In this document: in pieces, positions 16,383-35,171 of the stretch
Layout of the letters: every line of letters starts with the position of its first letter
How positions within the stretch are numbered: position 1 is the stretch's first letter
DNA from: Roseisalinus antarcticus
GTDB taxonomy: Bacteria; Pseudomonadota; Alphaproteobacteria; Rhodobacterales; Rhodobacteraceae
DNA length: 43,299 nt
Direction of reading: 5' to 3'
NCBI RefSeq assembly: GCF_900172355.1
Contig: NZ_FWFZ01000028.1
Span: 1 to 43,299 of the forward strand
The notes under the pieces: generated by a model
Seen by the model: only the letters and a program-made list of their open reading frames with translations
Database searches by the model: none
What the model was told of the DNA's origin: nothing
Made by a program: the position numbers and the translations under genes

Positions 16383-16408
16383 GGGCCGCCGGGCGGTGCC
16401 GGCGGCCC
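16383..16408. other. Intercistronic stem-loop between binding protein and permease genes
   Basis: GGGCCGCCGG and CCGGCGGCCC form a perfect 10-bp GC-only stem with a 6-base loop, 9 bases beyond the binding-protein stop on the transcribed (minus) strand. There is no T-run. In ABC operons such hairpins often protect the binding-protein mRNA from 3' decay and lower expression of the permease genes; that role is inferred here. Confidence 0.75.
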
Positions 16409-16416
16409 GGACGGGA

Positions 16417-17991
16417 TCACTCGACGCGTTGCAGGTTCCAGAAGAACGGCACCGGGCTTTCGATGTAGCCCTCGAGGTCGGTGGCGATACCCACCGACGG
16501 GAACGCCTGGCCGAGCGGCACATAGCTGACCAGATCGTGGGTCAGGCGCTGCATCTCCTCGGCAAGCGCCATGCGCTCTTCCTCGGTTTCCGCGACGGCG
16601 AAGTCCTCGCGCAGCTGCTGCAGCTCGTCCGAGCAGGCCCAGCCGAACCAGGCGTCGTCGCAGGCGCCCGAGACGTAGACGTTCGTCATCGGGTTGGACT
16701 GGTCGACGAAGCCCCAGCCGGTGAAGAAGACGTTCCAGCCGCCATCCGCGACCGGCTCCTTGCTGGCGCGGCGGGTGGCGACGGTGGCCCAGTCCGACGG
16801 CTGCACCTCGACCGTGAAACCGGCCTCTTCCAGCATCGGCTTCAGCACCGCGTAATAGGCGTCATGGGTCGGGATATCCGAGACATGCATCAGCATGACC
16901 GGCGTGCCGTCATACCCGGCCTCGTCCAGCAACGCCTGGGCCGCTTCGGGATCGCGCTCCAGCACGCGGTCGGTGTTGACGTCCGTGGCGTAGGGCCCGT
17001 TGCAGAAGAACACCGCGGCGCATTTCAGATAGCGATCCTCGCCGTCGCCGTAGGCCGCCAGCAGGAAATCGTCCTGGGACACGGCCAGTTGCAGCGCCTG
17101 GCGCACCAGCGGGTCGTCGAATGGCGGGTTGAGGTGGTTGACCACCAGCTGCATGGAATTGCCCGATTGCCGGGCGGCCACGGCTTCGGCGGTGTCCACG
17201 CCGTCGAAATAGCGCAGCATGTCGGCCGGGACCTCTTCGATCCAGTCGATCTCGCCGGCGATCAGCGCGTTGATCGCGGTGGCGGTGTCGGGGATGTAGA
17301 TCGCCTCCACCCGGTCGAAATGCGCGATCTTGCCGCCGGCGGCCATGCTGGGCGGCTCGTCGCGGGGCACGTAATCCTCGAATTTTTCGAACACGACCAC
17401 GCTGCCGGGCACCCATTCCTCGGGCACAAGGCGGTAGGGGCCCGAACCGATGGGCTCCTGCACGGCCTCACTCGCGGGCGTCGCGGCCTGTTCGGCGGGC
17501 ATGATGACCGGGACATTCGACGAGATCTTGCCAAGCGCGTCCAGCACCAGGCCCCAGGGCTCGGCCAACTGGATCACAAGCGTCCTGTCGTCGGTGGCCT
17601 CGATGCTCTCCATCTTCGAGAACAGCGTCTGGCCGAGGCCGTCGACGCTGCCCCACCGTTCCAGCGAGGCGACGGCGTCGGCCGCGGTCACCGGGCTTCC
17701 GTCATGGAACATCAGCCCGTCGCGCAGGGTGATCGTGTAGGTCAGCCCGTCCTCCGAGATCTCGGTGCCCTCGGCCATCTGCGGCTGGGGCTGATAGGTC
17801 TCGTCCATCGCATAGAGCGTGTCGAACATCAGGTAGGCCGCGTTACGGACGGTGAAGTTCGTGGTCGAGATCGGATCGAGCGTGTTGACGTCTCCGTTCA
17901 TCCGCAAGCGCAGGGTCTCCTGCGCCAGGGCCGGCATCGCCGGCGCCAGCAGTGCGGCCGCAAGGGCCACGCGTCGTATCAGGTGTCGCAT
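16417..17991 (-). CDS. Peptide-type ABC transporter substrate-binding protein (SBP family 5)
   Basis: A 524-residue periplasmic protein with a Sec signal peptide (MRHLIRRVALAAALLAPAMP, cleaved after ALA). The mature part begins QETLRLRMNGDVNTLDPIST, typical of family 5 extracellular solute-binding proteins, with YTITLRDGLMFHDGSPVTAA in the conserved domain. The ATG at 17989-17991 is preceded by GGAGGAAA, which fixes the start. It is the first gene of the operon and sets substrate choice; peptides, nickel and oligosaccharides are all known ligands of the family. Its promoter region is shared with the divergent LacI-type gene. Confidence 0.92.
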   Translation of the reverse strand: MRHLIRRVALAAALLAPAMPALAQETLRLRMNGDVNTLDPISTTNFTVRNAAYLMFDTLYAMDETYQPQPQMAEGTEISEDGLTYTITLRDGLMFHDGSPVTAADAVASLERWGSVDGLGQTLFSKMESIEATDDRTLVIQLAEPWGLVLDALGKISSNVPVIMPAEQAATPASEAVQEPIGSGPYRLVPEEWVPGSVVVFEKFEDYVPRDEPPSMAAGGKIAHFDRVEAIYIPDTATAINALIAGEIDWIEEVPADMLRYFDGVDTAEAVAARQSGNSMQLVVNHLNPPFDDPLVRQALQLAVSQDDFLLAAYGDGEDRYLKCAAVFFCNGPYATDVNTDRVLERDPEAAQALLDEAGYDGTPVMLMHVSDIPTHDAYYAVLKPMLEEAGFTVEVQPSDWATVATRRASKEPVADGGWNVFFTGWGFVDQSNPMTNVYVSGACDDAWFGWACSDELQQLREDFAVAETEEERMALAEEMQRLTHDLVSYVPLGQAFPSVGIATDLEGYIESPVPFFWNLQRVE

Positions 17992-18209
17992 TGTTCTTTC
18001 CTCCCAGTTCGGCAATCGGCGCATCGTTTCGCGCCGCCGGCCCGTCCTCCTGCGTGGCGCGGGCGGTCGGAGAGCTCTGTCCCGCGACCCGCCGGATCCA
18101 CACGAACCGTTACGCACGTTTGCACGGGTTCGGGATTCGGGCAAGACCTATGCTTTTCCGCGCGGCTTTCAGCCAAGGCAACTTGCCAAACGCGCCCGCG
18201 TGCGTATCG

Positions 18210-18217: not shown

Positions 18218-18260
18218 TAGTGTTGACAAAGTGTCGGTATCGAGGGGCGGCGAGCGGGTC

Positions 18261-19274
18261 ATGGCAACGATAAGGGATGTGGCGCGACTGGCGAAGGTAT
18301 CGCCGACGACGGTGTCGGCCACCCTGAACGGCTCCGCCCCCGTCAGCGAAGAGCTGAAGACGCGGGTCATGGATGCGGTGCGGCGGGCGAATTACCAGCC
18401 CGACCGCAACGCCCAGACCCTGCGCCGCGGCGTCTCGACCACCATCGGGCTGATCGTGCCGGACATCGCCACGCCCTGGGCCTCGCACCTGGCGAAGGCG
18501 GCGCAGAGGTCGCTGGCGGACAACGGCTTCAACCTGCTGCTGGCCAGCAACGACGACGATCCGGAGCAGGAATTCCGCGACATCGCCCTGATGATCAGCC
18601 ACCGGGTCGCGGGGCTTCTGATCGGGCCGACCAGCCTGGGCCCCGGCTATGACGTGCGCTTTGCCGAGGCGGTCACCTGCCCGGCGGTGCTGGTGGACCG
18701 GGTCGTGGCGCCCGACCGTTTCGACATCGTCGCCGACGACAATGTCCATGGCGGGCGGCTGGTGGCGGAGTACCTGCTGCGGCGCGGCCATCGCCGGATC
18801 GGCATGCTCGTCGGGCGGCCCACGATCTCGGCCTCCTTCGAGCGGTTCGAGGCGGTCACGACCTCGCTGGCCGAAGGCGGCGCCCCGCTGGCCGAGAACC
18901 TCACGGCCTTCGGCGTCCACACGGTGGAGCAGGCCTATGCCGCCGCGCAGGACCTGATGTCGCAGCCGGTGCGCCCGACGGCGATCATCTGCATCTCGCA
19001 CACCCAGGTGCAGGGGGTGATGGCGGGGCTCAAGAACATGGGCGTCTCGGTGCCCGGAAACGTGTCGGTCATCAGCTTCGACGGCTTCAATCCGGCCGAG
19101 GGCTGGTATCCGACGATCACCGCGCTCGTGCAGCGCACCGGGCAGGTCAGCGACCTCGCCGTGGGCCGGTTGCTGGAGCGGATCCGCGCCGAGCGGCAGG
19201 GTGCGCCCGAGATCCAGCGCGTGCGCCCGACCCTGCGGGTGGGCGAATCCTGCGCTGCGCTCTCGGGCGGGTAG
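18261..19274 (+). CDS. LacI family transcriptional regulator
   Basis: A 337-residue repressor-type regulator. The N-terminal helix-turn-helix and hinge are canonical: MATIRDVARLAKVSPTTVSA then LNGSAPVSEELKTRVMDAVR. A periplasmic-binding-protein-like effector domain follows (IGLIVPDIATPWASHLAKAA; VSVISFDGFNPAEGWYPTIT). It is divergent from the peptide-type ABC operon and most likely controls it and itself. LacI-family effectors are nearly always sugars or nucleosides, a hint that the family 5 transporter here imports a glycoside or oligosaccharide. Confidence 0.92.
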   Translation: MATIRDVARLAKVSPTTVSATLNGSAPVSEELKTRVMDAVRRANYQPDRNAQTLRRGVSTTIGLIVPDIATPWASHLAKAAQRSLADNGFNLLLASNDDDPEQEFRDIALMISHRVAGLLIGPTSLGPGYDVRFAEAVTCPAVLVDRVVAPDRFDIVADDNVHGGRLVAEYLLRRGHRRIGMLVGRPTISASFERFEAVTTSLAEGGAPLAENLTAFGVHTVEQAYAAAQDLMSQPVRPTAIICISHTQVQGVMAGLKNMGVSVPGNVSVISFDGFNPAEGWYPTITALVQRTGQVSDLAVGRLLERIRAERQGAPEIQRVRPTLRVGESCAALSGG

Positions 19275-19397: not shown

Positions 19398-20435
19398 TCA
19401 GGCCGCGCCGGGCGGGCCGACCGGCACGCCTTCGGCGATCAGCCCGGCCGAGACGAAGTCGGACCACAGTCCGTCGGGGATCGGCGCGGCGGCATGGGCG
19501 ATGTTCGCCCGGACCTCTTCCGGCGTCACCGCGCCGAAGACGACCGAGGAGACTTCCGGCGCCATCAGAGGAAATTGCAGCGCCGCCGCCGGCAGATCGA
19601 CCCCGTGATCGCGGGTGATCGCGTTCAGCCGGGCGACCTTGTCGACGATCTCCTGCGGGGCGGTGCCGTATTCGTACTTGCCGCCCTCGGCCTCGCCCGT
19701 GGCCAGGATGCCAGAGCTGAAGGCCCCCCCCACGACGACCGACGCGCCGGTCTTGGCGGCCGGCAGGATCTCCTCGAAATAGATCGCCTGTTCGAGCAAC
19801 GTGAACCGCGACGCGACGAAAAAAACGTCGAGCTGCGCCGCCTCGAGGAAACGGGTCATCATGCCGCGCTCGTTGATGCCGGCGCCGATGGCCGCCACCT
19901 CGCCCGCGGCCCGGAGCTCTTCCAGCGCACGGTATCCGCTGCTGTCGAGCTCGCGAAACTTCGCCGTCAGCGCCGCCTCGTCGGGGAAATACCCCCGGTC
20001 GAGGTCGTGGATATAGAGCATGTCGACCTTGTTGATCCCCAGCCGCTGGAGGCTGTCCTCGTAGCTGCGCATGATCGCGTCGTAGGTGAAGACATGCTCC
20101 ACCTCGAATTGCAGGGGCGCCTCCCATGCGGGCGGTGCGAAGGCCGCGCGATCCCGGGGCCGGTGCAGCAGCCGCCCGACCTTGGTGGTCAGCACGTAGC
20201 TGTCCCGCGGCCGGTCGAAGAGTGCGCGGCCCGTTCGATGTTCGGCCTGGCCCAGCCCGTACCAGGGGGCGGTGTCGAAGAAACGAACGCCCCCGTCCCA
20301 GGCGGCCTGGAAGGTCGCGCGGGCCTCCGCCTCGTCGATCTTTGCGTAGATCCCGCCAAGCGGCGCGGTGCCCAATCCCAGGACCGGCACCTCCAGCTCG
20401 GTCTGACCGATCCTTCTGCGCTGGTCGAGTGTCAT
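19398..20435 (-). CDS. Aldo/keto reductase (aldose dehydrogenase-like)
   Basis: A 345-residue NAD(P)-dependent (alpha/beta)8-barrel enzyme. The catalytic tetrad can be placed: Asp54 and Tyr59 in RFFDTAPWYG, Lys85 in LTTKVGR, His143 in MLYIHDLDRG. Overall pattern and length are closest to the D-threo-aldose/L-fucose/L-galactose 1-dehydrogenase group, which oxidises aldoses at C1 to lactones. The ATG at 20433-20435 overlaps the stop of the Gfo/Idh/MocA gene. It is the last gene of the operon with the lactonase-like protein and ribose-type transporter, so it likely acts on the same sugar or a downstream carbonyl. Confidence 0.88.
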   Translation of the reverse strand: MTLDQRRRIGQTELEVPVLGLGTAPLGGIYAKIDEAEARATFQAAWDGGVRFFDTAPWYGLGQAEHRTGRALFDRPRDSYVLTTKVGRLLHRPRDRAAFAPPAWEAPLQFEVEHVFTYDAIMRSYEDSLQRLGINKVDMLYIHDLDRGYFPDEAALTAKFRELDSSGYRALEELRAAGEVAAIGAGINERGMMTRFLEAAQLDVFFVASRFTLLEQAIYFEEILPAAKTGASVVVGGAFSSGILATGEAEGGKYEYGTAPQEIVDKVARLNAITRDHGVDLPAAALQFPLMAPEVSSVVFGAVTPEEVRANIAHAAAPIPDGLWSDFVSAGLIAEGVPVGPPGAA

Positions 20436-21478
20436 GGGCGGACCTCCTTCATCAGATCTGCGATGTGGATCAGCCGCCCGGACGCGGCGGAGCGGTAGGC
20501 GGCTTCGGCCAGGGCATAGGTCTGCAGGCTGCTTTGGGCCGAGGTCTCGAATTCGGCGCCCGAGCGCAGCGCATCGACGAAATGCTGCTCCGTGCGCGGC
20601 ACGGAATCCTGGATCTGCGTCCAGGGGGCCGATGTCCAGCCGCGCGTGTCGGCGGCAATGGCCTCGTCCCGCGTGGCCCCGCCGGAATGGATGCGCAGGA
20701 TCTCGCCCTCGAGGATCTGCACCGTGCCGTCGCGGCCCTCGATCTCGCCCAGGGTCTGGGGAAACGGGTTGGGATGTCGGTGCGCGGCGTAGCTGACATC
20801 GACGATGGTGGTGGCGGCGCTGTCGTGCCGCAGCAGGATGGTGGCCGCGTCCTCTCCGGCCAGGCCCGGCCGCACGGACTGGTTGAGGCAGGTCACGTCC
20901 GCCGCGTCGCCCATCAGGAACCGCGCCAGGTCGAGCATGTGAATACCCACGTCCATGATCATGAAACGCTCGGTCTTCAGCAGGTAGGGCTGGTTGGAAT
21001 AGACGTCGATATCGTTGCGCCAGGACAGGCGGGCAAAGGTTGTCTCGCCGATCTCTCCGCTGTCGAGGATCTCTTTCAGCCGGCGAAAGATCTTCTGGAA
21101 CCGGAAATTCTCGTGCACCATCACCGGCACGCCGGCGGCGCGGGCATGCGCCTCGATCCGCAGGCAGGTCTCTATGTCCGGCGCGAAGGGCTTTTGTACG
21201 ATGACCGGAACGCCCGCGTCCACGGCCTGCGCGATCAGCGCCTCGTGGGTGTCCATGGTGGTGCAGATGTCGACGAAATCGAACGCGCCGGACCCCAGAA
21301 CGGCCGCGTCCTGGTGCCAGGCGGGGATGCCGAAGGTCTCGGCCGCGCCGCGGGCCCGGTCGGCGTCGCGGTCGCAGACGGCGGCGATCCGCGCCCCCTC
21401 GACATCGGCCCATCCGTGCAGATGGTTGCCCGAGAAAAAGCCGCACCCGATCAGCAGGCCATTCATCTCGGTGGTCAT
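20432..21478 (-). CDS. Gfo/Idh/MocA oxidoreductase, candidate D-apiose dehydrogenase
   Basis: A 348-residue NAD(P)-dependent sugar dehydrogenase. The Rossmann motif is LLIGCGFFSGNH near the N-terminus. The family EKP motif reads VIVQKPFAPD (Lys about residue 97), and MVHENFRFQKIFRR and FMIMDVGIHMLDLARFLMGD line the active site. The combination NHLHGW, QKPFAP and VHENFRFQ resembles what I recall of D-apiose dehydrogenases (ApsD), which make D-apionolactone. Its position directly after a D-apionate-lactonase-like gene supports this. Both borders are four-base overlaps. Family assignment is firm; the D-apiose substrate is inferred. Confidence 0.85.
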   Translation of the reverse strand: MTTEMNGLLIGCGFFSGNHLHGWADVEGARIAAVCDRDADRARGAAETFGIPAWHQDAAVLGSGAFDFVDICTTMDTHEALIAQAVDAGVPVIVQKPFAPDIETCLRIEAHARAAGVPVMVHENFRFQKIFRRLKEILDSGEIGETTFARLSWRNDIDVYSNQPYLLKTERFMIMDVGIHMLDLARFLMGDAADVTCLNQSVRPGLAGEDAATILLRHDSAATTIVDVSYAAHRHPNPFPQTLGEIEGRDGTVQILEGEILRIHSGGATRDEAIAADTRGWTSAPWTQIQDSVPRTEQHFVDALRSGAEFETSAQSSLQTYALAEAAYRSAASGRLIHIADLMKEVRP

Positions 21479-23406
21479 GCCGCAGGCCCCTTCAGGTAGA
21501 GCACGCCGAACGCGCCGATCCGGTCCAGCGAGAGGTGCCGTGGCTCCGGCGCCGGCTCGGATGAGAGCGAGATCGCGGTCGTCTCGTCAAGGCAGACGCC
21601 CTTGGGTGCGCGAAGCCCGATGTCGGGCAGATCGGCGGGCTCGGATGAAAGGTTGGCGACAAGAGCGCTGCGAACGCCCGACGCGTCCCAGCTGACGATG
21701 GCCAGCGGGCCCGTGATCTCGGCGCGGAGCAGCCGCCCGCCCCCTGCCCCCGCGATCCACCGCGCGACATGGTAGAGCGGATAGCAGGCCCCATCGGGCA
21801 GGTCGTCCCAGACCGCCCTGGCATGATCCTGGGCCGTCGACAGCAGGCCGAAGGGCCCCGTCGGGGCGCCGAAGGCGAACCGCTCCGGCGCGAAGGCCGC
21901 GATCCGGGCGAGGTAGCCCACCGTCCAGGCCGCGGCGAAGAGCCCGCGTTGCCGCGGGTCCCGGCCCGCCATTCCGGCGCGGTCGTCGGGGTCGTTGACG
22001 GTCGGCGCCGCGCCATAGGGGTTCAGTCGCATCCCGATGCCGGTCGGCCCGACCGAGACCGGCAGATCCCCCACCAACTCCCGCGCTGTGGTCAGAATAT
22101 GCGGCAGCGCCTGCAACGTCTCCATGACCGAGGAATCATCGGCCGCATGGACGACCGGCGAGGTGCCGAATGTCAGCCCTGACCAGAGCGCGGTGTCGGG
22201 ACGCTTGCGGTTGAACTCGGTGAAGAACGCGGGCGTGCCGCCGATCAGCCGGGCGTCGGGGAAGGCACGGCCGAGGGCGCTCGCGATCTCGGGGTCCGAC
22301 GGATGCGGTGGACGCTCCTGGCCGGGCTGAAAGCTCTGCTCGTCGATCTTGGGGAACGCCGCCACGGCCGCGGGGGCGATCCCCGCCGCCGTCAGGGACT
22401 GTGCCAGGTCGTCGATTTCCTGCGCGAGGCCCCGCGCGTCTTCAGCCGAGACGATGGTCTGGATCTCAAGCGCGGCGCCGGTCACCTCCATCAGCCTTGC
22501 CAGAGGCGCGAGGTCGCCGGTGCCGCCATCCACCGACGGATCCCATCGCAGAAGCAGGCGCTGCGGCGCCAGCGCCGTCATCGCCTCCACATGGCGCAAT
22601 GCGTCCGCTGCCCCCGCCGGGGTGTCGAGCGGCAGGGCATAGACCGGAAGCGGCTGGCCGTCGGCCTCCGGCTCCACGAGGGCCGGCGCGACCTGTGCCA
22701 CGGGCTCCGCCGGGCTGTCGATGGTGATGGTGACGGTCTGGACAACCGGTTCCTCCACCGAGAGCAGGTAGGGATGCGGCAGGCCGATGGGGCGGTTGTA
22801 GGTCTTGAGCGAGGCGTCCGACCAGTTGCGGTGATCCTCCATCTCGAAGACATCGCCCTCGAACCGGGTGCAGACACTCAGACCCTCGACCGGACGATGG
22901 GTCATCGCGCGCAGGTCCATGGCCGGCTGGCCGGGGGACAATTGCTTGGGGATCGTCACATCCCGAACGGTGCCGTCGGCATGCTCCAGCGTGGCCTCGC
23001 GGGCAATGACGCCGTCGAGCGGGTGCAGCACGATCAGACCCGCGCGGTTGGTCTCGAACGGGACCTCCGCACGGATTGTGGCCCTGGCCTCCACATGGCC
23101 ATCGGCCTCGCCCGCATAGCGCAGGGCGACGGCCACGCCCTCGCCCGGGGTCCCGAAATGGGCGTTGACCGCCACCGAAAACCCGGCCGCGGTCTCGGTG
23201 ATCTCCACGTCCGACAGGGTCGGGACGGGGGTGCCCCAGCCCGGCGTCCGCACCAGGAACAGGATACCGCGGATAATCTCCACACCGTCCCACCTGATCC
23301 AGCGCAGGGCACCGTCGTCCCATGTCGCCTCGAGCCGCCCGGCGCGCAGCACGCGCTTGGCAGCCTCGGCCTTGGAGGTTCCGAAAAGGAGCGTGTCTCG
23401 GGTCAT
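21475..23406 (-). CDS. apnL: D-apionate lactonase-like protein
   Basis: A 643-residue cytoplasmic protein without signal peptide. An N-terminal beta-rich part (residues 1 to about 250) contains LRWIRWDGVEIIRGILFLVR and FEMEDHRNWSDASLKTY (residues 187-203). A barrel-like middle part (about 250-560) contains FPKIDEQSFQPGQERPPHPS, VVHAADDSSVMETLQALPHI and GMRLNPYGAAP. A short C-terminal beta domain follows. This three-domain layout and these motifs fit the D-apionate lactonase family, which opens D-apionolactone to D-apionate. The assignment is from remembered family features, not a search. It overlaps the permease upstream and the dehydrogenase downstream by four bases each. Confidence 0.7.
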   Translation of the reverse strand: MTRDTLLFGTSKAEAAKRVLRAGRLEATWDDGALRWIRWDGVEIIRGILFLVRTPGWGTPVPTLSDVEITETAAGFSVAVNAHFGTPGEGVAVALRYAGEADGHVEARATIRAEVPFETNRAGLIVLHPLDGVIAREATLEHADGTVRDVTIPKQLSPGQPAMDLRAMTHRPVEGLSVCTRFEGDVFEMEDHRNWSDASLKTYNRPIGLPHPYLLSVEEPVVQTVTITIDSPAEPVAQVAPALVEPEADGQPLPVYALPLDTPAGAADALRHVEAMTALAPQRLLLRWDPSVDGGTGDLAPLARLMEVTGAALEIQTIVSAEDARGLAQEIDDLAQSLTAAGIAPAAVAAFPKIDEQSFQPGQERPPHPSDPEIASALGRAFPDARLIGGTPAFFTEFNRKRPDTALWSGLTFGTSPVVHAADDSSVMETLQALPHILTTARELVGDLPVSVGPTGIGMRLNPYGAAPTVNDPDDRAGMAGRDPRQRGLFAAAWTVGYLARIAAFAPERFAFGAPTGPFGLLSTAQDHARAVWDDLPDGACYPLYHVARWIAGAGGGRLLRAEITGPLAIVSWDASGVRSALVANLSSEPADLPDIGLRAPKGVCLDETTAISLSSEPAPEPRHLSLDRIGAFGVLYLKGPAA

Positions 23407-24416
23407 CGACTTTGCCTCTTGATGAAGACGTCAAAGGCCACGGCGGCGATGATGATCAGACCGATCATGACCTGCTGGGTGTAGGGTGAGACGTTCAGGA
23501 TCACGAGCCCGTTCATCAGGACGCCGGTCAGAACCGCGCCGATCACGGTGCCCACGACGCCGCCCGTCCCGCCGTAAAGGCTGGTGCCGCCGATCACGAC
23601 GGCGGCGATCACGGTCAACTCGTAGCCGGTCCCGGCGACCGCCTCGGCCGAGTTCAGCCGCGCGGCCAGAACGAACCCCGCGAGCCCGGAACAGAAGCCG
23701 ATGATCCCGAAGGAGGTGATGGTGATCCCGTTGACGTTGATGCCGGACAGGCGCGCCGCCTCGGGGTTCGAGCCCACCGCATAGACGGAGCGGCCGAACC
23801 GCGTCTGCGTCAGTACGAGGTAGGCGATGAGGGCGACGAGCGCGAAGATGATGACCGGCACCGGCACCGGTCCGATCAATCCCCGGCCCCACCATCCGAA
23901 TTCGGGCGAGAAGCCCGAGACCGGACCGCCGTTGCCGATCGCCAGCGCGAGCCCCCGGAAGATCGTGAGCCCCCCCAGCGTCACCACGAAGGCGGGGACC
24001 GCCAGCCAAGCGACGACCATCCCCTGAAACAGCCCCGCGAGCGTTCCCACGGCCAGCGCCGCGAGGACGGCGATGGTCCAGTGATAGCCGTCGCCGGCAT
24101 CGGAAAATCCGCCGCTCGTGCCGCCCTTGGCGACCACGGCCGCGCACAGCCCGGTCAGCGCGACCAGCGAGCCCACCGACAGGTCGATCCCGCGGATCAG
24201 GATCACGAAGGTCATGCCCACCGCGATGATCCCGAAGATCGAGACCTGCCGCAGGACGTTGAAGATGTTGATCGGCAACAGGAACCGGGGCTGCAGGCTG
24301 GTGAAGATCACCACCAGCGCCAACAGGAAGATCAGCGGCGCGAGCTTGCCCAGCAGGGCGAACCGCCGCGCCCGTCGAAGCGCCGCACTGGTTTCGGCAT
24401 GTTCTTCAGCGGTCAT
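23403..24416 (-). CDS. Ribose-type sugar ABC transporter permease (RbsC-like)
   Basis: A 337-residue inner-membrane permease of the CUT2 class. The conserved cytoplasmic motif GMTFVILIRGIDLSVGSLVA and the loop GRSVYAVGSNPEAARLSGI are present, together with GGTSLYGGTGGVVGTVIGA. About ten hydrophobic segments are seen, as usual. It works as a homodimer with the RbsA-like ATPase encoded six bases upstream. In the context of dehydrogenase and lactonase genes it should import their sugar substrate. Confidence 0.92.
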   Translation of the reverse strand: MTAEEHAETSAALRRARRFALLGKLAPLIFLLALVVIFTSLQPRFLLPINIFNVLRQVSIFGIIAVGMTFVILIRGIDLSVGSLVALTGLCAAVVAKGGTSGGFSDAGDGYHWTIAVLAALAVGTLAGLFQGMVVAWLAVPAFVVTLGGLTIFRGLALAIGNGGPVSGFSPEFGWWGRGLIGPVPVPVIIFALVALIAYLVLTQTRFGRSVYAVGSNPEAARLSGINVNGITITSFGIIGFCSGLAGFVLAARLNSAEAVAGTGYELTVIAAVVIGGTSLYGGTGGVVGTVIGAVLTGVLMNGLVILNVSPYTQQVMIGLIIIAAVAFDVFIKRQSR

Positions 24417-24422
24417 CTGTCA

Positions 24423-26024
24423 TCAGCCCTTTTCTGCGGCCATGGTCTGGCCCTCATGCCGCGTCATCCGTGTCATCAGATCCTCCGGTGTTGTCTGCGA
24501 TGCCGGGCCGTCGCCCGTCACTTCGCCCTCGCGCAGGGTCACCACCCTGTCCGCGAGCGCCATGACCTCGGGCAGATCGGACGAGATCAGCAGGACCGCG
24601 ACGCCCTCCCCCGCGATCTGACGAACGAGGTCGTGCACATCCTCCTTGGCGCCGACGTCGATGCCGCGGGTCGGCTCGTCGATGATCAGCAGCCGCGGCT
24701 GGCGCGCGATCCAGCGGGCAAGCACGACCTTCTGCTGGTTGCCGCCCGAGAGATTGGTGATCGGCGCCCGCGTGTTCTGCACCCGAATGCCGAGGCGCTC
24801 GATATAGGAAGCCAGCAGCCGCGTCTCTGCGCCGCGGTTGATCCGCCCCAGTGCGCCGGGGGCCACGGGGCTGGTGACGGTGAAATTCTCATGCACCGAG
24901 CGGTGCGGCAGGATCGAGAGGTCCTTGCGGTCTTCGGAGACATAGCCAAGCCCGGCCTCCATCGCGCCGGCCGGCCCGCGCGGCGTGAACCGCTGGCCGT
25001 CGAGCAGGATTTCCCCGTCGCCCACCGGATCGAGGCCGAAGATCATCCGCGCGGTCTCTGTGCGGCCGGCGCCGATGATCCCGGCAAGGCCCAGGATCTC
25101 TCCGGCCCGGACGGTGAAGGACACGTCGCGGACCATCTGCTCGCCACGCCCACGGCGGCGCGAGGCGAGGTTGCGCACCTCGAGCACGACCGGCCCGGGC
25201 TCTCGCGCCGCGCCACCGCGGCCGCGGCCGATCTCGACACTGCGGCCAGCCATGTCGCGGATGAGGTCGGGGATTTCGGTCTCGGCCGCGCGCCCGTCCG
25301 AGATGACCCGCCCGTCGCGCAGCACCGTGTAGGTCTCGCAAAAGGCCTTCACCTCGTCGAGCCGGTGACTGACATAGAGGACGGCGACCCCCTCGGCCGA
25401 AAGCTGGGCGACGATCCCGCCCAGGTTCTCGACTTCCTTGGGCGAGAGCGAGGCCGTCGGCTCGTCCATGATCACCACCTTGGACTCGCGGGTCAGCGCC
25501 CGGGCGATCTCCACCATCTGCTGTTCGGCGACGGACAGGCTGGCGACCGGCAGGCGCGGATCGACATCGAGCCCGAGCCGGCCCAGCGCCCGCCGCGTCT
25601 CGCGACGGACATGGGCCCAGTCGATCAGGCCGAACCGGCGCGACGGCAGGTGCCCGGCGAAAATCGCCTCGGCCACGGAAAGATCGGGAAACAGCGACAG
25701 CTCCTGCCGGATCACGCTGATGCCGGCGTGATCGGCGTCGAGCGGGCGCAGATACTGGACCGGCTCGCCCTGCATCCTGATCTGTCCGCCATCGGGCTGA
25801 TGAACGCCCGACAGCAGGTTGATGATCGTCGACTTCCCGGCCCCGTTCTCGCCCAGAAGCGCACGCACCTCTCCCGGCACCAGCGACAGCGACACCTCGT
25901 TCAGGACGGTGACGCCGAAGAACCGCTTGGTCAGGGCCGCGGCCTCGAGCACGGGAGGACCGGCGCGCGATGTGCGCCCCGGTCCCCCCGCCCGAGCCGG
26001 AACTTCGTCCAGCCGAACCGTCAT
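24423..26024 (-). CDS. Ribose-type sugar ABC transporter ATPase, duplicated domains (RbsA/MglA-like)
   Basis: A 533-residue protein with two ABC domains, typical of CUT2 importers. Domain 1 has Walker A GENGAGKST and Walker B KVVIMDEPTASLS with a degenerate signature (LSVAEQQMVEIA). Domain 2 has the usual altered Walker A GIIGAGRTE, signature LSGGNQQKV and Walker B LLIIDEPTRGIDVG. Its ATG overlaps the last base of the binding-protein stop, so translation is coupled. A proline- and arginine-rich extension of about 25 residues precedes domain 1; a later start cannot be excluded. Confidence 0.92.
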   Translation of the reverse strand: MTVRLDEVPARAGGPGRTSRAGPPVLEAAALTKRFFGVTVLNEVSLSLVPGEVRALLGENGAGKSTIINLLSGVHQPDGGQIRMQGEPVQYLRPLDADHAGISVIRQELSLFPDLSVAEAIFAGHLPSRRFGLIDWAHVRRETRRALGRLGLDVDPRLPVASLSVAEQQMVEIARALTRESKVVIMDEPTASLSPKEVENLGGIVAQLSAEGVAVLYVSHRLDEVKAFCETYTVLRDGRVISDGRAAETEIPDLIRDMAGRSVEIGRGRGGAAREPGPVVLEVRNLASRRRGRGEQMVRDVSFTVRAGEILGLAGIIGAGRTETARMIFGLDPVGDGEILLDGQRFTPRGPAGAMEAGLGYVSEDRKDLSILPHRSVHENFTVTSPVAPGALGRINRGAETRLLASYIERLGIRVQNTRAPITNLSGGNQQKVVLARWIARQPRLLIIDEPTRGIDVGAKEDVHDLVRQIAGEGVAVLLISSDLPEVMALADRVVTLREGEVTGDGPASQTTPEDLMTRMTRHEGQTMAAEKG

Positions 26025-26989
26025 CAGTCGATCAAACCCACCCGTTCGGCCTGGTCGAGGTTGTCCTGGGTGATCGCGACCGGGTCGAGAAGGATATTGT
26101 CGCTCTCGGGCTCGATGCCGTTGCGGATGTAGTCCACGAGGGTGCGGACCGCGATCCGGCCCTGCTCGCCCGGGAACTGGTCGACCGTCGCGGCCAGGCT
26201 TCCGTCGCGCACGGCGCGCAAGGCACCGACCGATCCGTCATAGCCGTAGATCGCGATCTCGCCGGCAAGGCCACGCGCCTCGACCGCCTGTGCCGCACCC
26301 AGCGCCATGTCGTCGTTGGCGGCGATGATGACCTGCGGCGTCTCTTCCAGGCCGGTCAGGATATTCTCGGTCACCGACAGACCTTCGTCGCGCGAGAAAT
26401 TCGCCGGCTGCTCGGACACGAACTGATAGCTGTCGCCGGCCGCATCGAGCACCGCGTGGGCGCCGTCATTGCGGTCGTTGGCGGTCTTGTCGCCGGGGAT
26501 GCCCTGCAGGTTCACGATCGTGGCCCCGTCGGGAAACGCCGCGACCACCGCTTCGCCCTGCGCCTCGGCGCCGGAGTAGTTGTCGGCGGCGACATTGGCC
26601 AGAACCTCGGGCACGCCGTTGACGGGACGGTCGACCGTCACGACGGGAATGCCGTTCTGAATCGCCATGCGCACGGTTTCGGCCAGGCCGCTGGCGTCCA
26701 CCGGTGCCACGATGATGCCGTCGACACCCTGCACAACTGCCGCCTCAAGGTCCGAGACCTGTTTGGGCGAGGACAGCTGACCGTCCGCGACGACGATCTC
26801 GACGCCGCCGATCTGCTCGGCCTCGTCCTGCATCTGCTCAACCATGAAGACGAAGTGAGGAAAGGCGAATGTCAGAGGCGACACGAGAATCGTGACCTCC
26901 TCCTGCTCCGATTGCGCAATGGCGGCCGGCGCGGCGACCAGCCCGGCGATCGCTGCGGATGCCGCGAGCATGAACGAGCGCTTCAACAT
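26024..26989 (-). CDS. Ribose-type sugar ABC transporter substrate-binding protein
   Basis: A 321-residue periplasmic protein with a Sec signal peptide (MLKRSFMLAASAAIAGLVAA, cleaved after AIA). The mature protein is a two-lobe sugar-binding fold with DLEAAVVQGVDGIIVAPVDA, VPVVTVDRPVNG-like IPVVTVDRPVNGV and IIAANDDMALGAAQAV, all typical of RbsB-like proteins. GGGAGGAT before the ATG fixes the start. It is the first gene of the six-gene operon that ends with the aldo/keto reductase. A GntR operator candidate lies 36-45 bases upstream. Confidence 0.92.
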   Translation of the reverse strand: MLKRSFMLAASAAIAGLVAAPAAIAQSEQEEVTILVSPLTFAFPHFVFMVEQMQDEAEQIGGVEIVVADGQLSSPKQVSDLEAAVVQGVDGIIVAPVDASGLAETVRMAIQNGIPVVTVDRPVNGVPEVLANVAADNYSGAEAQGEAVVAAFPDGATIVNLQGIPGDKTANDRNDGAHAVLDAAGDSYQFVSEQPANFSRDEGLSVTENILTGLEETPQVIIAANDDMALGAAQAVEARGLAGEIAIYGYDGSVGALRAVRDGSLAATVDQFPGEQGRIAVRTLVDYIRNGIEPESDNILLDPVAITQDNLDQAERVGLID

Positions 26990-27024
26990 GTTTCTGTATC
27001 CTCCCAGATTTCAGATGGGCCATT

Positions 27025-27034
27025 CTGCATACAT
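27025..27034. promoter_or_regulatory. Candidate GntR operator (CTGCATACAT)
   Basis: Nine of ten bases match the palindrome CTGCATACAG/CTGTATGCAG found at three other places near this locus. It is 36 bases upstream of the sugar-binding-protein gene, overlapping a possible -10 (TAAATG on the minus strand), a position that would allow repression of the transporter operon. Confidence 0.55.
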
Positions 27035-27154
27035 TTACGCCGACCCAGCGCGTAGAGTGTCACGTTATCCTGACAAATAATCAACGGCTTTCTGCAATCT
27101 TCGTCATGATCCAGGGTCAGGAATGTCTTTTCTTGTCCGGGATCAGCATCTAAT

Positions 27155-27164
27155 CTGTACGCAG
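27155..27164. promoter_or_regulatory. Candidate GntR operator (CTGTACGCAG)
   Basis: Nine of ten bases match CTGTATGCAG. It lies 65 bases upstream of the SDR gene, on the other side of the divergent region from the 27025 site, so each transcript has its own copy. Confidence 0.5.
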
Positions 27165-27228
27165 TTTTTGGCCAGCAGGGTAGCCGCCCCGCTTTTGCGC
27201 AATGCATGATGTATCGAAAGGGACTCCG

Positions 27229-28044
27229 ATGTCTGACTACCTTGCCCGCCTGTTCTCGCTCCAGGGGCAGACCGCGCTGGTCGCCGGCGGTGCCGGCGCC
27301 ATCGGCCGCGACATTTCGATGGCGCTCGCCAAGGCCGGCGCCCGCGTGATCGTCCACGACCTCTCGCCCGACCGGCTTGACGACGTCAAGGCCATGTTCG
27401 ACGCGGAAGGGCTCGAGTTTACCGGGATCGAGGCGGATCTGGGCACGGCCGCCGCCTGTGCCGAGCTTGCGGCAAAAGCCGGCGAGGTCACGGGCCGCAT
27501 CGACATCCTCGTGAACCTTCAGGGCGCCAACCGCCGCAAGCCGATCGCAGATGTCACCGCCGAGGATTTCGACCTCATCACCTCGGTCAACCTGCGGTCG
27601 GTCTATTTCCTCTCGCAGGCGGTCCAGCCGATCATGAAGCGCCAGGGCGGCGGGCGGATCGTCCACTTCAGCTCTCTCTCGGCGAACGTGTCCTTCGACA
27701 CGATCTCGGTCTACGCGGCCACCAAGGCCGCCGTCACGTCGCTCACCCGCAGCCAGGCCCACGAATGGGCCGACGACAACATCCTGGTGAATTCGATCGA
27801 GCCGGGCTTCGTCCAGACCGAGTTCACGCGCCCGCTCTGGGACGACGATTACCGCGCCGAGTGGTTCGCGAACTTCATCCCCCAGGGGCGCCTGGCCCGG
27901 CCCGAGGACCTGGTGACCACGGTGCTCTATCTCGCCGCGCCAGCGACCCGCTATCTCACCGGGCAGAACATCACGCCGGACGGCGGCGTCATGACCGGCG
28001 CAAGCTGGGTCGAGACCCCGCGCCGCGCCGCCATCGAGCGCTGA
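27229..28044 (+). CDS. Short-chain dehydrogenase (SDR), gluconate 5-dehydrogenase-like
   Basis: A 271-residue classical SDR. The cofactor motif is VAGGAGAIGRDIS (TGxxxGIG pattern), the structural motif NLQGAN sits where NNAG is usual, and catalysis uses Tyr162 and Lys166 in SVYAATKAAVTS. It oxidises or reduces a hydroxyl or carbonyl with NAD(P). The ATG at 27229 is preferred over one at 27202 because AAAGGGA lies just before it. It is divergent from the sugar transporter operon and 12 bases upstream of a sulfurtransferase gene. Similar proteins act in sugar acid metabolism, so it is a candidate for a later step on the lactone-derived acid. Confidence 0.88.
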   Translation: MSDYLARLFSLQGQTALVAGGAGAIGRDISMALAKAGARVIVHDLSPDRLDDVKAMFDAEGLEFTGIEADLGTAAACAELAAKAGEVTGRIDILVNLQGANRRKPIADVTAEDFDLITSVNLRSVYFLSQAVQPIMKRQGGGRIVHFSSLSANVSFDTISVYAATKAAVTSLTRSQAHEWADDNILVNSIEPGFVQTEFTRPLWDDDYRAEWFANFIPQGRLARPEDLVTTVLYLAAPATRYLTGQNITPDGGVMTGASWVETPRRAAIER

Positions 28045-28056
28045 AAGGACCCCGCA

Positions 28057-28917
28057 ATGACCGATTGGCTCATCGAGACGGACGACCTCGCCACCCTGCT
28101 GGAGACCGAGCCCGACGCGGACCGCGTCGTGCTGGACTGCTCCTGGTATCTGCCCGAGACCGGCAAGCACGCCATCGAGGACTTCCGGGCCGGGCACATT
28201 CCCGGCGCCCGGTTCATCGACCTCGCGGACATCTCCGACCCGGAGTCCGACTACGTGAACATGATGCCCTCGCCCGAACGGTTCGCCGACGCCGTGGGCG
28301 CGGCGGGCATCGGCAACGGGACCGAGGTGATCGTCTACGACGCGGGCTATGTCTCGGCGCGGCTGTGGTGGATGTTCCGCACCTTCGGCCACAACCGGGT
28401 GCGTATCCTCAACGGCGGCTACCGCAAGTGGGTCGCCGAGGGCCGCCCGCTGGAGGATGGTCCCGCCCGAGACGTGCCGCGGCAGGACTTCGTGGCCGGG
28501 CCCGTCGAGGGGCGGGTCGCCTCCATCGAGACCCTGCGCGACGTGACGGCGAACGGCGGCGCCGCGATCATCGACGCGCGGACCGCCGCCAAGTTCGACG
28601 GCCTTGAAGGATCGGGCTATCCCGGCGTCGCCTCGGGCTACATGCCCGGCGCCATCAACACGCCCTGGCAGCTGTTCTTCCGACCCGCCCCGGATCATCG
28701 CTTTGTCTCCGCCGACGAGGCGCGGCGGATCTTCGAGGACCGCGGCGTCGACATGTCGGGCCCGGTCATCACCACCTGCGGATCGGGCGTGACGGCGTCG
28801 ATCCTGGGCTTCATGCTCGAACAGGTCGGGCACGCCGACTGGACGCTCTACGACGGGTCCTGGCACGAATGGGGCCAGCAGCCCGACACGCCCAAGCTGG
28901 TCAAAGGCGACACCTGA
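28057..28917 (+). CDS. Two-domain rhodanese-type sulfurtransferase (3-mercaptopyruvate sulfurtransferase-like)
   Basis: A 286-residue protein with two rhodanese domains. The inactive N-terminal domain (residues 1 to about 130) has LDCSWYLPETG and RFIDLADISDPESDYVNMMP. The C-terminal domain carries the catalytic Cys241 in TTCGSGVTAS, the CGSGVTA loop typical of 3-mercaptopyruvate rather than thiosulfate sulfurtransferases. It would move sulfur from mercaptopyruvate or a similar thiol to an acceptor. It directly follows the SDR gene and lies in a sugar locus, where its role is unclear. The fold assignment is firm. Confidence 0.9.
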   Translation: MTDWLIETDDLATLLETEPDADRVVLDCSWYLPETGKHAIEDFRAGHIPGARFIDLADISDPESDYVNMMPSPERFADAVGAAGIGNGTEVIVYDAGYVSARLWWMFRTFGHNRVRILNGGYRKWVAEGRPLEDGPARDVPRQDFVAGPVEGRVASIETLRDVTANGGAAIIDARTAAKFDGLEGSGYPGVASGYMPGAINTPWQLFFRPAPDHRFVSADEARRIFEDRGVDMSGPVITTCGSGVTASILGFMLEQVGHADWTLYDGSWHEWGQQPDTPKLVKGDT

Positions 28918-28933
28918 CAGCATTCTGGCCGTC

Positions 28934-29380
28934 TCAGCTCTCGGGCAGCTGGATCATCTCGATGATCAGCCCCTCTTCGGGGCTGCGCATGTAGATGATC
29001 CGGCCGCCCTTGTTCGGCCCGTCGTCGATCTGGACCTCGGTGCCCACGATCTCCAGCGGCCAGGCCAGCGCCCGCTCCAGTGCCGTGTCCATGTCATCGA
29101 CGTTCATCGCCACGTGAAGCGAGCCCAGGTCGCAGGGGCGCGGCACGTAGCGGGCGACGTCACCCGGGGCGGAATAGCACAGAAGCTCCAGCCTCGCGGG
29201 GCCGTTGCGCATGTAGATGACCTCGACCTCGGCCCCCCGAACACCCGTCACGGCAGAGATGATGGCAGGGTCGCGCGGCGCGCGTGAAAAGGTCTCGAAC
29301 CCGAAGAGATCGCGAAACATCGCCTCGCTGCGGTCGAGATCCTTCACCGTGATCCCGGTGTGATTGAACGTGACATTCAT
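28934..29380 (-). CDS. VOC family (glyoxalase/dioxygenase fold) protein
   Basis: A 148-residue vicinal-oxygen-chelate protein. It opens with FNHTGITVKDLDRSEAMFRD, where the first metal-binding histidine is expected, and has LGSLHVAMNVDDMDTALERA and a final acidic position in GLIIEMIQLPES. These could give the usual His/His/Glu metal site. Family members include glyoxalases, epimerases and dioxygenases; the reaction cannot be set. GAGGAAC precedes the ATG. It lies downstream of the SDR at 29423-30169 on the same strand with a 42-base gap, probably one transcript under the GntR regulator. Confidence 0.85.
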   Translation of the reverse strand: MNVTFNHTGITVKDLDRSEAMFRDLFGFETFSRAPRDPAIISAVTGVRGAEVEVIYMRNGPARLELLCYSAPGDVARYVPRPCDLGSLHVAMNVDDMDTALERALAWPLEIVGTEVQIDDGPNKGGRIIYMRSPEEGLIIEMIQLPES

Positions 29381-29422
29381 CTTTCGTTCCTCGTTGGTCT
29401 TGGGTTTCTCCGCCGGCGGCCC

Positions 29423-30169
29423 CTACCGGCCCCCGCTTACGGGCAGTATCGCGCCGGTCACGTAGCTCGCGGCCTCCGACAGCAGCCAGACGATGGCGGC
29501 CGCGGTCTCCTCGGCCGATCCCGCCCGGCCCAGGGGCACGGTCTGGCCCAGCCGCTCGACACGGCCGGCATCGCCGGCGGATTTGTGGATCTCGGTGTCG
29601 ATCAGGCCGGGGCGCACGGCGTTGACCCGGATGCCTTCGGGGCCCAGCTCCTTCGACAAGCCGATGGTCATGGACTCGATCGCGCCCTTCGAGGCGCCAT
29701 AGTCGATGAACTCGTTCGGGGCGCCAAGAACCGCCGACATGGACGACAGGTTGACGATGCTGCCCCCCTGCCCGCCGTTTCCCGTGGCCATCAGGCGCAA
29801 GGCCTCGCGACAGCACAGGAAGGTGCCGGCGGTGTTGATCATGAAGGTGCGGGTCCAACGTTCCAGCGAGATGCCCTCGAACCGGCCCGAGGGGGGGAGC
29901 ATGCCCGCGTTGTTGACCAGCCCGCGCAGGTGGCCATGGCGCTCCGCGCAGGTGGCGAAGAGGTGGCGGACCTGCGCCTCGTCCGAGACGTCGACCTGCA
30001 GCGCCTCCGCCCGGCCTCCCGCGTCGCGGATCTCGCCCACGACCCTCCCGGCCGCCTCCGCGTCCGAATTGAACGTCAGCAGGACGTCCCAGCCCTCCCG
30101 CGCGGCCAGACGCGCCGTCGCGGCGCCGATGCCCCGCGACCCGCCGGTTATCAGCAGAACCGCCGTCAC
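29423..30169 (-). CDS. Short-chain dehydrogenase/reductase (SDR)
   Basis: A 248-residue classical SDR of normal length. The cofactor motif is ITGGSRGIGAATA, NNAG is present as GLVNNAGM, and the catalytic residues are Ser143, Tyr157 and Lys161 (DYGASKGA). The start is a GTG at 30167-30169 without a clear ribosome binding site. It sits between the GntR regulator and the VOC protein and probably belongs to the same sugar-acid pathway. The pattern resembles glucose 1-dehydrogenase/3-oxoacyl reductase-like SDRs, so the substrate is open. Confidence 0.88.
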   Translation of the reverse strand: MTAVLLITGGSRGIGAATARLAAREGWDVLLTFNSDAEAAGRVVGEIRDAGGRAEALQVDVSDEAQVRHLFATCAERHGHLRGLVNNAGMLPPSGRFEGISLERWTRTFMINTAGTFLCCREALRLMATGNGGQGGSIVNLSSMSAVLGAPNEFIDYGASKGAIESMTIGLSKELGPEGIRVNAVRPGLIDTEIHKSAGDAGRVERLGQTVPLGRAGSAEETAAAIVWLLSEAASYVTGAILPVSGGR

Positions 30170-30367
30170 GTGCGCGCCCCCGCACGGCGGGTCGGATGCG
30201 CGGCGCGGACGCCGGCGCCCGTGCGCCTTGAAAGTGATCGCATCACGTCCCGACGCCCCGGGTATCGGCCCGTTCCGGCCGGACGAATTCCCGCGCCTTC
30301 CGCTCTCATAGCCTCGTCCTCTTCCTTGCCCTGTCGCTGCGGCTGCCGGTCCAACCGGGTTGCGTGT

Positions 30368-31162
30368 TCAGAACCCTTCTCCCGACCGGGCGGCCATCTT
30401 CTCGGTCTCGGATTTCCGCGTCGGGCCCTCCTTGCCATCGAGAGCAACCCGCGCGGCGGCCCGGACGAGCCGCGGCTCGAACTGCGGCTCGATCTGGGCG
30501 ATGATCGTCAGGGCGATGCGGGCGTAATGCTCTGCCAGAAGGTAGGACACGAGCCCGCCGTCCCGCGCATCGCAGGCCGCCAGGATCGCGCGATGCTCGG
30601 CAGAGGATTGTTCATAGGAATTGGATTGCCCCAGATAGATCCGGCGATACCGCTCTGCATGCTCGTTGAGCTTCGCCGAATACTCCACATGCCGTGGACC
30701 GGCCCCCCGGATCGCAATCATGTGGAAAGTCCGGTGCGCAGCGTCGAATTCGGCGAAATTCTCGGGCGAGGCGAATTGCTCCATCCGCGCGAGACAGTCG
30801 CGCATCTCGTCCATGTCCGCGCCGTCCAGATCCGCAACCGAGGTCCGCACGGTCGAGGTGTCAAGCTTGATCCGCAGCGCATAAAGCTCGTCAAGATCGG
30901 CCATGGAGGTGGTCGAGATCACCACCTGCCGCCCCCGGCGGGAGCTTACCAGCCCCTCTTTCTCGATCAGGCGGAGGGCTTCGCGGACCGGGGTCCGGCT
31001 CAGCCCGAGGCTTTCGGCGATCTTGACCTGGGACAGCCGGGCGCCCGGCGCGAAGGCCCCCCGCAGGATCGCGAGCTTGATGCGGTCATATGCGTCGAGC
31101 ATCCGGCTGCCGCTGATGTCGGCCCCAATCGCCTCACCGGCCTGTTCGTCGTTCGAAACCAC
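30368..31162 (-). CDS. GntR family transcriptional regulator, FCD subfamily
   Basis: A 264-residue regulator. The winged helix-turn-helix is at residues 24-90 (YDRIKLAILRGAFAPGARLS, then SLGLSRTPVREALRLIEKEG). An all-helical FCD effector domain follows, with metal-ligand-type histidines in FAEFDAAHRTFHMIA and EHRAILAA. The start is a GTG at 31160-31162; a later ATG at 31100-31102 would remove 20 residues. FCD regulators usually respond to sugar acids or other small organic acids, fitting a pathway via a lactone. Palindromes related to CTGTATGCAG upstream of this gene and in the 27-kb divergent region are its likely sites. Confidence 0.9.
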   Translation of the reverse strand: MVSNDEQAGEAIGADISGSRMLDAYDRIKLAILRGAFAPGARLSQVKIAESLGLSRTPVREALRLIEKEGLVSSRRGRQVVISTTSMADLDELYALRIKLDTSTVRTSVADLDGADMDEMRDCLARMEQFASPENFAEFDAAHRTFHMIAIRGAGPRHVEYSAKLNEHAERYRRIYLGQSNSYEQSSAEHRAILAACDARDGGLVSYLLAEHYARIALTIIAQIEPQFEPRLVRAAARVALDGKEGPTRKSETEKMAARSGEGF

Positions 31163-33913: not shown

Positions 33914-35171
33914 GGCCGGCCCCGGCCAGAAAGGTCGCCCGCGGCCCGGAGACATCCCAGAGCGCACCGGCCAGGACACTGGCCGTCAGCACGGCCAGCC
34001 CGCCGGCGAAATGGAATATCCCGAAGGCCGTTCCGCGCAGGTCCGGCGGGGCGCTGTCCGCGATCAGCGTGGCCAGCAAGCCCTGGGTCAACCCCAGGTG
34101 CAGCCCCCAAAGCGCCACGCCGAAGGCAACGCCGGTCAGGCCATCGGCAAGGCCCAAGACCAGGTCGGCGGCGATCAGCAGGCCGAAGCCGATCAGCAGC
34201 AGCGTCACCCGGTCATAGCGGTCCGACAGCACCCCTGCCGGATAGGCCGAGAGCGCGTAGACCAGATTCATCAGCATCAGCACCATTGGGATCAGCACCA
34301 CTGGCAGGCCGGTGCCTTGCGCCCGCAGGATCAGGAAGGCCTCGCTGAACCGCGCAAGCGAGAACACCGTCGCGACGGCCACCACCAGCCAGAAAGGCGC
34401 GCCGAGGCGCTTCAGCTCAGCCTTGCTGAACGGCAGGCGTCTTTTCGGCCGGTCCGATGCTGGGGGCGGTTCGTGGACGGCAAACACCAGCAGCCCCAGC
34501 GCGAGGAAGGCCGGCAGCACGGCGACCCAGAACACCGCCTGAAAGTTGTTGGCCGTCAGCCACATCAGCGCGATGGCCAGGAACGGGCCGAGGAACGCGC
34601 CCACCGTATCGAGGGATTGGCGCAGGCCGAAGCTCGCGCCGCGCAGGTGGGCGGGCGCGATGTCGGCCACCAGCGCGTCCCGCGGCGCCCCCCGGATGCC
34701 CTTGCCGATCCGGTCGACGAACCGCGCCGCCGTCAGCCAGCCAACGGTGGCGGCAAGCGGGAACACCGGCTTGGTGACGGCGGCGAGCCCATATCCGATC
34801 ACGGCCAGCAGCTTGCGCCTGCCCAGCCAGTCCGACAGCGCCCCCGAGAAGATCTTGACGATCGACGCCGTGGCTTCCGCGACCCCCTCGATGATGCCGA
34901 CGGTCACCATCGACACCCCCAGCACCGAGACGAGATAGACCGGCAGCAGGGCGTGGATCAGTTCCGAAGACACATCCATGAGCAGCGACACGCAGCCCAG
35001 CGCCCAGATCCCGGTCGGGATCTGGCGCAGCCCCGACAGGGTGGACGACAGAAAGGTCACGCGGAGGCCCACGCTGCGGGCCGCCTCACGGCCGGGGTCC
35101 GATGGCCGGGGCTGGCCGAAGGGGCCTCGGGACGCCCGGCCGCGCGGGGCCGCCGGGCCGGGGCGCGTCAC
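33837..35171 (-). CDS. MFS transporter
   Basis: A 444-residue major facilitator with about twelve hydrophobic segments. The loop 2-3 signature is [10 protein letters not shown], and a second-half counterpart is [10 protein letters not shown]. The pattern resembles drug/multisubstrate exporters rather than sugar symporters; the substrate is unknown. The GTG start at 35169-35171 overlaps the gcvP stop (GTGA), so it is probably co-transcribed with the glycine cleavage genes. A downstream GTG at residue 38 is possible because the first 40 residues are Pro/Arg-rich and poorly conserved-looking. Confidence 0.85.

Follow-up and report, generated by a model that had tools for sequence, protein, structure and literature searches.

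To our knowledge, every route of D-apionate degradation runs through ApnO, and the D-apiose isomerase route makes no use of a lactonase. A canonical D-apiose cluster and growth on D-apiose are described for the Rhodobacteraceae strain LCG007 (PMC11747546), and an isomerase route encoded by ApsI together with kinase/aldolase genes is described for Enterobacteria (PMC13001218). The DNA investigated here (the window) is contig C118 of the Roseisalinus antarcticus genome (5.0 Mb, completeness rated at 100%), a stretch of 43,299 nucleotides in which an initial annotation had pointed to a candidate D-apiose lactone pathway with non-standard downstream enzymes. Its sugar locus resembles the p42f locus of Rhizobium etli CFN 42 (L082) in that a CUT2 importer, a Gfo dehydrogenase and an ApnL-family lactonase stand in one operon. 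In contrast to the R. etli locus, which has ApnO, OiaK, OiaX, TPI, RpiB, DhaK and DhaL, the window locus lacks all seven, and an aldo/keto reductase, a short-chain dehydrogenase/reductase (SDR1) and a sulfurtransferase take the place of the R. etli downstream genes. We are confident that the locus represents a conserved cassette that is not the known D-apiose lactone route, and we propose, with a probability of about 0.38, that it catabolises an aldose outside that route, most likely a sulfur-bearing one. No description of this cassette was found in the full-text literature, the coverage of which was partial, with subscription papers lying outside it.

All genes named in the initial annotation were confirmed as open at the coordinates given here, with the reading of open reading frames (ORFs) and the Pfam and NCBIfam searches in agreement. 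On the minus strand, six genes whose ends overlap or almost touch encode, in this order, a periplasmic sugar-binding protein (SBP; 26024..26989; PF13407), a sugar ABC ATPase (24423..26024; PF00005 in two stretches) and a sugar ABC permease (23403..24416; PF02653), which by Pfam make up a complete CUT2 ribose-type importer, followed by a lactonase-like protein of 643 residues (21475..23406; NF049900) that we place in a paralogous cassette subfamily of the ApnL family, an ApsD-like Gfo/Idh/MocA dehydrogenase (20432..21478; PF01408) and an L-galactose-dehydrogenase-like aldo/keto reductase (19398..20435; PF00248, E 9e-40), the last two being predicted aldose 1-dehydrogenases. The reductase most likely starts at 20435 and not at the start of the long ORF, judging from a conserved Met and an ATGA overlap with the Gfo stop. 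From the intergenic region shared with this operon, two genes diverge on the plus strand: SDR1 (27202..28044; PF13561/PF00106), which is KduD/gluconate-5-dehydrogenase-like and predicted to catalyse a second oxidation, and a two-domain sulfurtransferase with catalytic Cys241 (28057..28917; PF00581 in two stretches), which is similar to 3-mercaptopyruvate sulfurtransferase (MST) and belongs to a subfamily that we term N74/Y197.

The cassette recurs, whole or in part, in 15 loci besides the window (L002-L013, L057, L083 and L084). Of the 128 related stretches from a scan for the lactonase, the 80 best were used, together with three of the 236 plasmid records that gave a match; 68 other ApnL-family loci (67 from the scan and the R. 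etli locus; 45 of at least 15 kb, 23 shorter) served as the control set. The gene caller prefers antisense ORFs in places, and genes of the relatives were named by BLAST or family search unless they are stated to be read by eye. SDR1 is found in 15/15 related loci and, at an identity of at least 50%, in 0/68 controls; a sulfurtransferase is found in 15/15 versus 1/68, the single exception (L071) carrying an enzyme closer to the type of L011. This linkage opposes a chance adjacency of the sulfurtransferase which, together with SDR1, is a fixed companion and the real oddity of the locus, while SDR2 (3/15) and the VOC protein (4/15), which the initial annotation had counted among the shared partners, proved merely occasional. 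The Gfo dehydrogenase is present in 14/15 related loci, and the reductase, SBP and permease in 13/15 each; L011 lacks the Gfo gene, L004 and L013 lack the reductase, and in L010 SDR1 sits behind the reductase, a rearrangement that keeps the linkage. Across these loci the lactonase is 45-61% identical to that of the window, the Gfo dehydrogenase 61-77%, the permease 69-85% and SDR1 57-79%. The carriers belong to Rhodobacteraceae/Paracoccaceae, Rhizobiaceae and Kaistia, with two further Hyphomicrobiales/Rhizobiales and one member of Burkholderiaceae, and one copy is borne by a plasmid typed as conjugative. Among 385 genomes sampled from the class, only that of the window had a lactonase relative at E <= 1e-90, and another genome from its genus had none at 1e-85, which indicates a patchy distribution. 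The cassette has probably spread horizontally.

No Pfam family matches the window lactonase at E <= 0.001. Against the ApnL model NF049900 it scores 493.4 bits (E 9e-148, residues 5-590), so that the resemblance to D-apionate lactonases anticipated in the initial annotation is borne out at the level of the family and falls short at the equivalog cut-off of 750. The two other cassette members scored, L002 (485) and L010 (568.5), are also under this cut-off, and the R. etli protein reaches 1049.7. By this curated test the window lactonase is not ApnL, and its identity to the ApnL proteins of R. etli and G013 is 33-38%, two separate comparisons with the R. etli protein giving 33% and 38%. In a tree of 48 proteins, including three divergent non-proteobacterial rows that were omitted from residue comparisons, the 14 cassette lactonases (window included) lie on one side of a single branch with a support of 100/99. 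The 31 other proteobacterial members share 55 invariant positions, of which 44, including E188, D191, R193, H420 and D423, are the same throughout the 14 cassette rows and 11 vary; nine further positions are fixed differently in the cassette. We expect the cassette enzyme to be an active lactonase with a specificity other than that of ApnL. The AF2 model (pLDDT 94.6) consists of beta strands, a helix-and-strand middle and a C-terminal beta region. No solved relative was found by sequence at E <= 1, and the fold matches among the 50 listed were glycoside-hydrolase-like only (among them GH30 xylanases, a beta-arabinopyranosidase and a galactosaminidase), which gave no catalytic lead.

The initial annotation had seen none of the known downstream enzymes at the locus, and this observation now extends to the whole genome, in which queries with R. 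etli ApnO, OiaK and OiaX found no relatives at E <= 0.001. The OiaX query is named in its record, while the ApnO query is presumed to be ApnO from its place in the locus. As the latter matched no model and the OiaK query reaches only 473 of the 700 bits required by the OiaK model, a very divergent ApnO or OiaK could escape detection. The suggestion that the later genes lie elsewhere in the genome is opposed by this search, and a canonical D-apiose lactone pathway completed by such genes is highly improbable; in its favour, the lactonase and the Gfo dehydrogenase match ApnL and the apiose-locus Gfo at the level of the family.

Across the 14 cassette genomes, strong matches to ApnO, OiaK and OiaX occur in seven and are absent from seven, some of the other genomes having weak matches (25-33%), possibly to other enzymes. 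A second ApnL-family protein of full length, placed by its identity to R. etli, is encoded in 8/14. Five of these eight genomes are among the seven with ApnO, OiaK and OiaX, and there the second copy is 44-63% identical to R. etli ApnL, nearer than the cassette copy; the other three (G009, G010 and G011) are without the ApnO/OiaK/OiaX set, and their second copies are 38-43% identical. In L118, L119 and L121 the second ApnL adjoins an ApsD-like Gfo gene. G006, in which ApnO, OiaK and a further ApnL are also present, has an OiaX relative (C1:219374-220639) reported with one in-frame TGA.

These genomes bear on a further explanation, in which D-apiose or D-apionate would be degraded with new downstream steps in place of ApnO. 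Such a route would be in keeping with the 46-47% identity of the Gfo dehydrogenase both to the solved chain 5uhw and to its R. etli counterpart, with the identity of the lactonase to the R. etli and G013 enzymes, and with two loci, described below, where the cassette adjoins D-apionate genes. We nevertheless regard it as unlikely, as the lactonase is under the ApnL cut-off, the SBP is only about 30% identical to its counterpart in the apiose locus of R. etli, a second ApnL closer to the R. etli enzyme is retained in five genomes with ApnO, OiaK and OiaX (adjoined in three loci by an ApsD-like Gfo), and the sulfurtransferase would be left unexplained. What stands of the initial proposal is a module of the ApsD/ApnL type, from aldose to lactone to acid, with non-standard partners; D-apiose as its substrate is disfavoured by the lactonase score, the SBP and the second ApnL copies.

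The proposal of a sulfur-bearing substrate rests on the sulfurtransferase. The window enzyme resembles MST (NF008557; solved chains 4jgt and 1urh) in having two rhodanese stretches and the CGSGVTA catalytic loop. It is unlike MST in scoring below the NF008557 cut-off of 250 (204.5 bits; L004, 204.6) and in changes at D63, H74 and R197, as well as R188K. Residues are numbered by offset from Cys248 of 4jgt (human numbering), and D63, H74, R188 and R197 are presumably the residues of the 3-mercaptopyruvate site. We aligned 14 cassette rows (13 distinct) with one housekeeping paralogue from every cassette genome except G010, G011 and G012 (11 of 14). The Cys-Gly-Ser-Gly-Val-Thr loop is kept in 14/14 cassette rows, as are C248 and S250. 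H74N and R197Y occur in 14/14 cassette enzymes versus 0/11 housekeeping paralogues, which all keep His74 and both Arg residues, and D63 is replaced in 14/14 whereas Asp or Glu occupies this position in 11/11 paralogues. The window's genome encodes a separate housekeeping MST with the usual residues on contig C78, which argues against the cassette enzyme being the housekeeping MST. A distant sulfurtransferase type (31-32% identity) is found in the same neighbourhood in L011 and L012. The L012 lactonase is sister to that of L010, the sulfurtransferase of which is of the N74/Y197 type; the type has been switched with the linkage kept, suggesting that the function is needed.

The best solved chain for the Gfo dehydrogenase is 5uhw (E 5e-99; 46% identity in the Foldseek alignment), which we take to be ApsD, followed by inositol dehydrogenases; identity to the R. 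etli apiose-locus Gfo is 47%, and no ApsD model is among the NCBIfam matches listed for the window proteins. The nearest solved chains of the aldo/keto reductase are L-galactose dehydrogenases, and its Asp, Tyr, Lys and His residues at positions invariant across 14 rows are presumably catalytic. For SDR1, models of glucose 1-dehydrogenase, KduD and gluconate 5-dehydrogenase are among the 25 NCBIfam matches listed, all under cut-off, and the latter two suggest that it may oxidise a carbinol of a sugar acid. The best models for the ATPase are sugar-importer ATPases (25 matches listed, all under cut-off), and no substrate-specific importer model reached its cut-off among the NCBIfam matches listed. 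The SBP, whose motifs are kept within the cassette, is nearest to the solved chains 4irx and 4rxm, which we assume to be inositol-binding, and then to sugar- and ribose-binding proteins. Its pocket seems to keep most of the RbsB pocket residues, with two apparently changed, which is too weak a likeness to name a ligand.

These relatives of the SBP and the Gfo dehydrogenase would suit a sulfur-free aldose, such as a pentose or a branched or cyclitol-like sugar, degraded without phosphorylation by oxidation at C1, opening of the lactone and the action of SDR1, with the sulfurtransferase in an auxiliary role in persulfide or cyanide metabolism. We hold this explanation to be tenable, at rather less than even odds; it is also favoured by the literature search, which within its partial coverage found no thiosugar as a growth substrate for bacteria. 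An auxiliary role is in poor agreement with the 15/15 versus 1/68 linkage, with the second sulfurtransferase type at the same locus and with the maintenance of a dedicated paralogue beside a housekeeping MST. For cyanide handling, suggested by the cyanide bioreactor from which Rhizobium daejeonense comes, the literature search brought no evidence either way.

A pathway for a sulfur-bearing aldose could proceed as follows. The CUT2 importer would bring the sugar into the cell, where the Gfo dehydrogenase and the aldo/keto reductase would oxidise C1 to give the lactone; the absence of Gfo from L011 and of the reductase from L004 and L013 suggests that both act on C1, possibly as alternative or anomer-specific enzymes. 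The ApnL-type lactonase would then open the lactone to the sugar acid. MST desulfurates 3-mercaptopyruvate at the carbon adjacent to its ketone, and because this chemistry needs a ketone beside the C-S carbon, we propose that SDR1 would oxidise the hydroxyl next to that carbon. As in the reaction of MST with 3-mercaptopyruvate, the alpha-mercaptoketone so formed could pass its sulfur to Cys241 of the sulfurtransferase to give a persulfide, and a sulfur-free keto acid would be left for central metabolism. In its specific form, as a thiosugar catabolic pathway whose sulfurtransferase has been adapted from 3-mercaptopyruvate to an alpha-mercaptoketone derived from a sugar, the proposal is possible but doubtful.

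The N74/Y197 subfamily extends beyond the cassette. In 15 further members checked, N74, Y197, C248 and S250 are all present, and position 63 is D or E in 8/15, versus 0/14 cassette members. Among 11 Rhizobiaceae contexts outside the cassette, a cystathionine-lyase-like gene occurs in seven (57-65% identical to that of L115 in four and 32% in three), an FAD-oxidase-like gene in six and a BisC-like gene resembling S-oxide reductases in four; four contexts have none of these. Three operons from the window's family look alike by eye, and the one checked by family search has a BisC-family match under cut-off and a cystathionine beta-lyase over cut-off. A set comprising a BisC-type S/N-oxide reductase, a VOC protein, an FAD amino-acid-oxidase-like protein, an N74/Y197 sulfurtransferase and a cystathionine-lyase-like protein recurs in L113-L115, L141, L143 and L144, and a LysR gene was read by eye in L113-L115. 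This recurring set looks like an organosulfur amino-acid route. These operons share the sulfurtransferase subfamily with the cassette but have no CUT2 importer, cassette Gfo or lactonase in the stretches fetched, and sulfur chemistry emerges as the common thread of the subfamily.

One cassette-bearing genome has a second N74/Y197 sulfurtransferase (L108, 7477-8346; 67% identity), with no cassette sugar genes in the stretch and an adjoining ORF that looks like a hydantoinase subunit by eye. An in-frame TGA was reported in 2/13 sulfurtransferase relatives (L137 and L138). A selenocysteine or broken-enzyme reading was rejected, as the stop in L137 falls near position 50 and not at the catalytic Cys, and L138 has no stop in the aligned stretch. 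L137, which is close to the cassette type and has no cassette gene around it, is probably a remnant.

Several observations weigh against a sulfur-bearing substrate. Two loci, L004 and L013, have ApnO, OiaK and OiaX no more than about 10 kb from the cassette core (from about 6.7 kb to the end of the stretch), and in L004 an ApsD-like Gfo is also nearby, the L013 stretch ending before that point. The corresponding genomes, G003 and G012 (both marine Rhodobacteraceae), show no ApnL besides the cassette copy. Gene adjacency in these two loci favours a link to D-apionate there and is the best evidence for such a link; of the cassette loci fetched, they are the only ones where the two gene sets adjoin. 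The loci are furthermore not all independent, as L008 and L083 come from one species with the same sulfurtransferase and the pairs L003/L009 and L004/L013 are near copies; given also the single origin of the cassette lactonases in the tree, much of the linkage may be inherited. The substrate site of the sulfurtransferase is only partly changed, R188 being kept in 13/14 cassette enzymes and replaced in the window alone. The N74/Y197 marks by themselves point to no sugar, as they are also found in the amino-acid-looking operons. A bacterial pathway for thiosugar catabolism was not found in the full-text literature, within its partial coverage, and the route proposed here is accordingly without precedent in the literature searched. 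The substrate and every step of the scheme are inferred, the alpha-mercaptoketone chemistry and the residue roles being drawn from general background.

The cassette is flanked in the window by genes with a looser association. Behind the sulfurtransferase, on the minus strand, lie the occasional companions: the VOC/glyoxalase protein (28934..29380; PF13669/PF00903), with counterparts in L002, L004, L005 and L013, and SDR2 (29423..30169; PF13561), with counterparts in L002 and L004 (65-67% identity) and, in pieces, in L013. A GntR/FCD regulator (30368..31162, minus strand; PF00392 and PF07729) is likely to be the local regulator and adjoins the cassette in L003, L005, L006 and L009 (64-68% identity) and, in pieces, in L013. 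On the other side, a LacI-type regulator (18252..19274, plus strand; read from translation alone, start uncertain) is a possible second regulator, with a match only in L062 (33%) among the other ApnL-family loci. It is adjoined by genes of a dipeptide/oligopeptide-type ABC importer (13473-18144, minus strand; read from translations), which lie outside the conserved cassette. Family searches identified the glycine cleavage P and T proteins (35168-39564, minus strand) and a metal P-type ATPase with YHS domains (39955-42411, plus strand) as ordinary flanking genes. In other cassette loci, an LrgA/LrgB-like membrane pair stands directly behind the reductase (L007, L008, L083 and L084) or at 1.8-2.9 kb (L005); the pair is annotated as such in L083, and the LrgB-like match was under cut-off in the family search.

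If the proposed reading is correct, the cassette would be a dedicated bacterial route for a sulfur-bearing sugar that links carbohydrate and organic-sulfur cycling, and thiosugars would count as genuine nutrients of terrestrial and marine bacteria. A role would also be assigned to a sulfurtransferase subfamily for which MST is the closest curated model. Even if the involvement of sulfur proves wrong, a group of ApnL-like proteins that is easily mistaken for D-apionate lactonase is set apart here from the true enzyme, and provides a clear set of candidates for assay.

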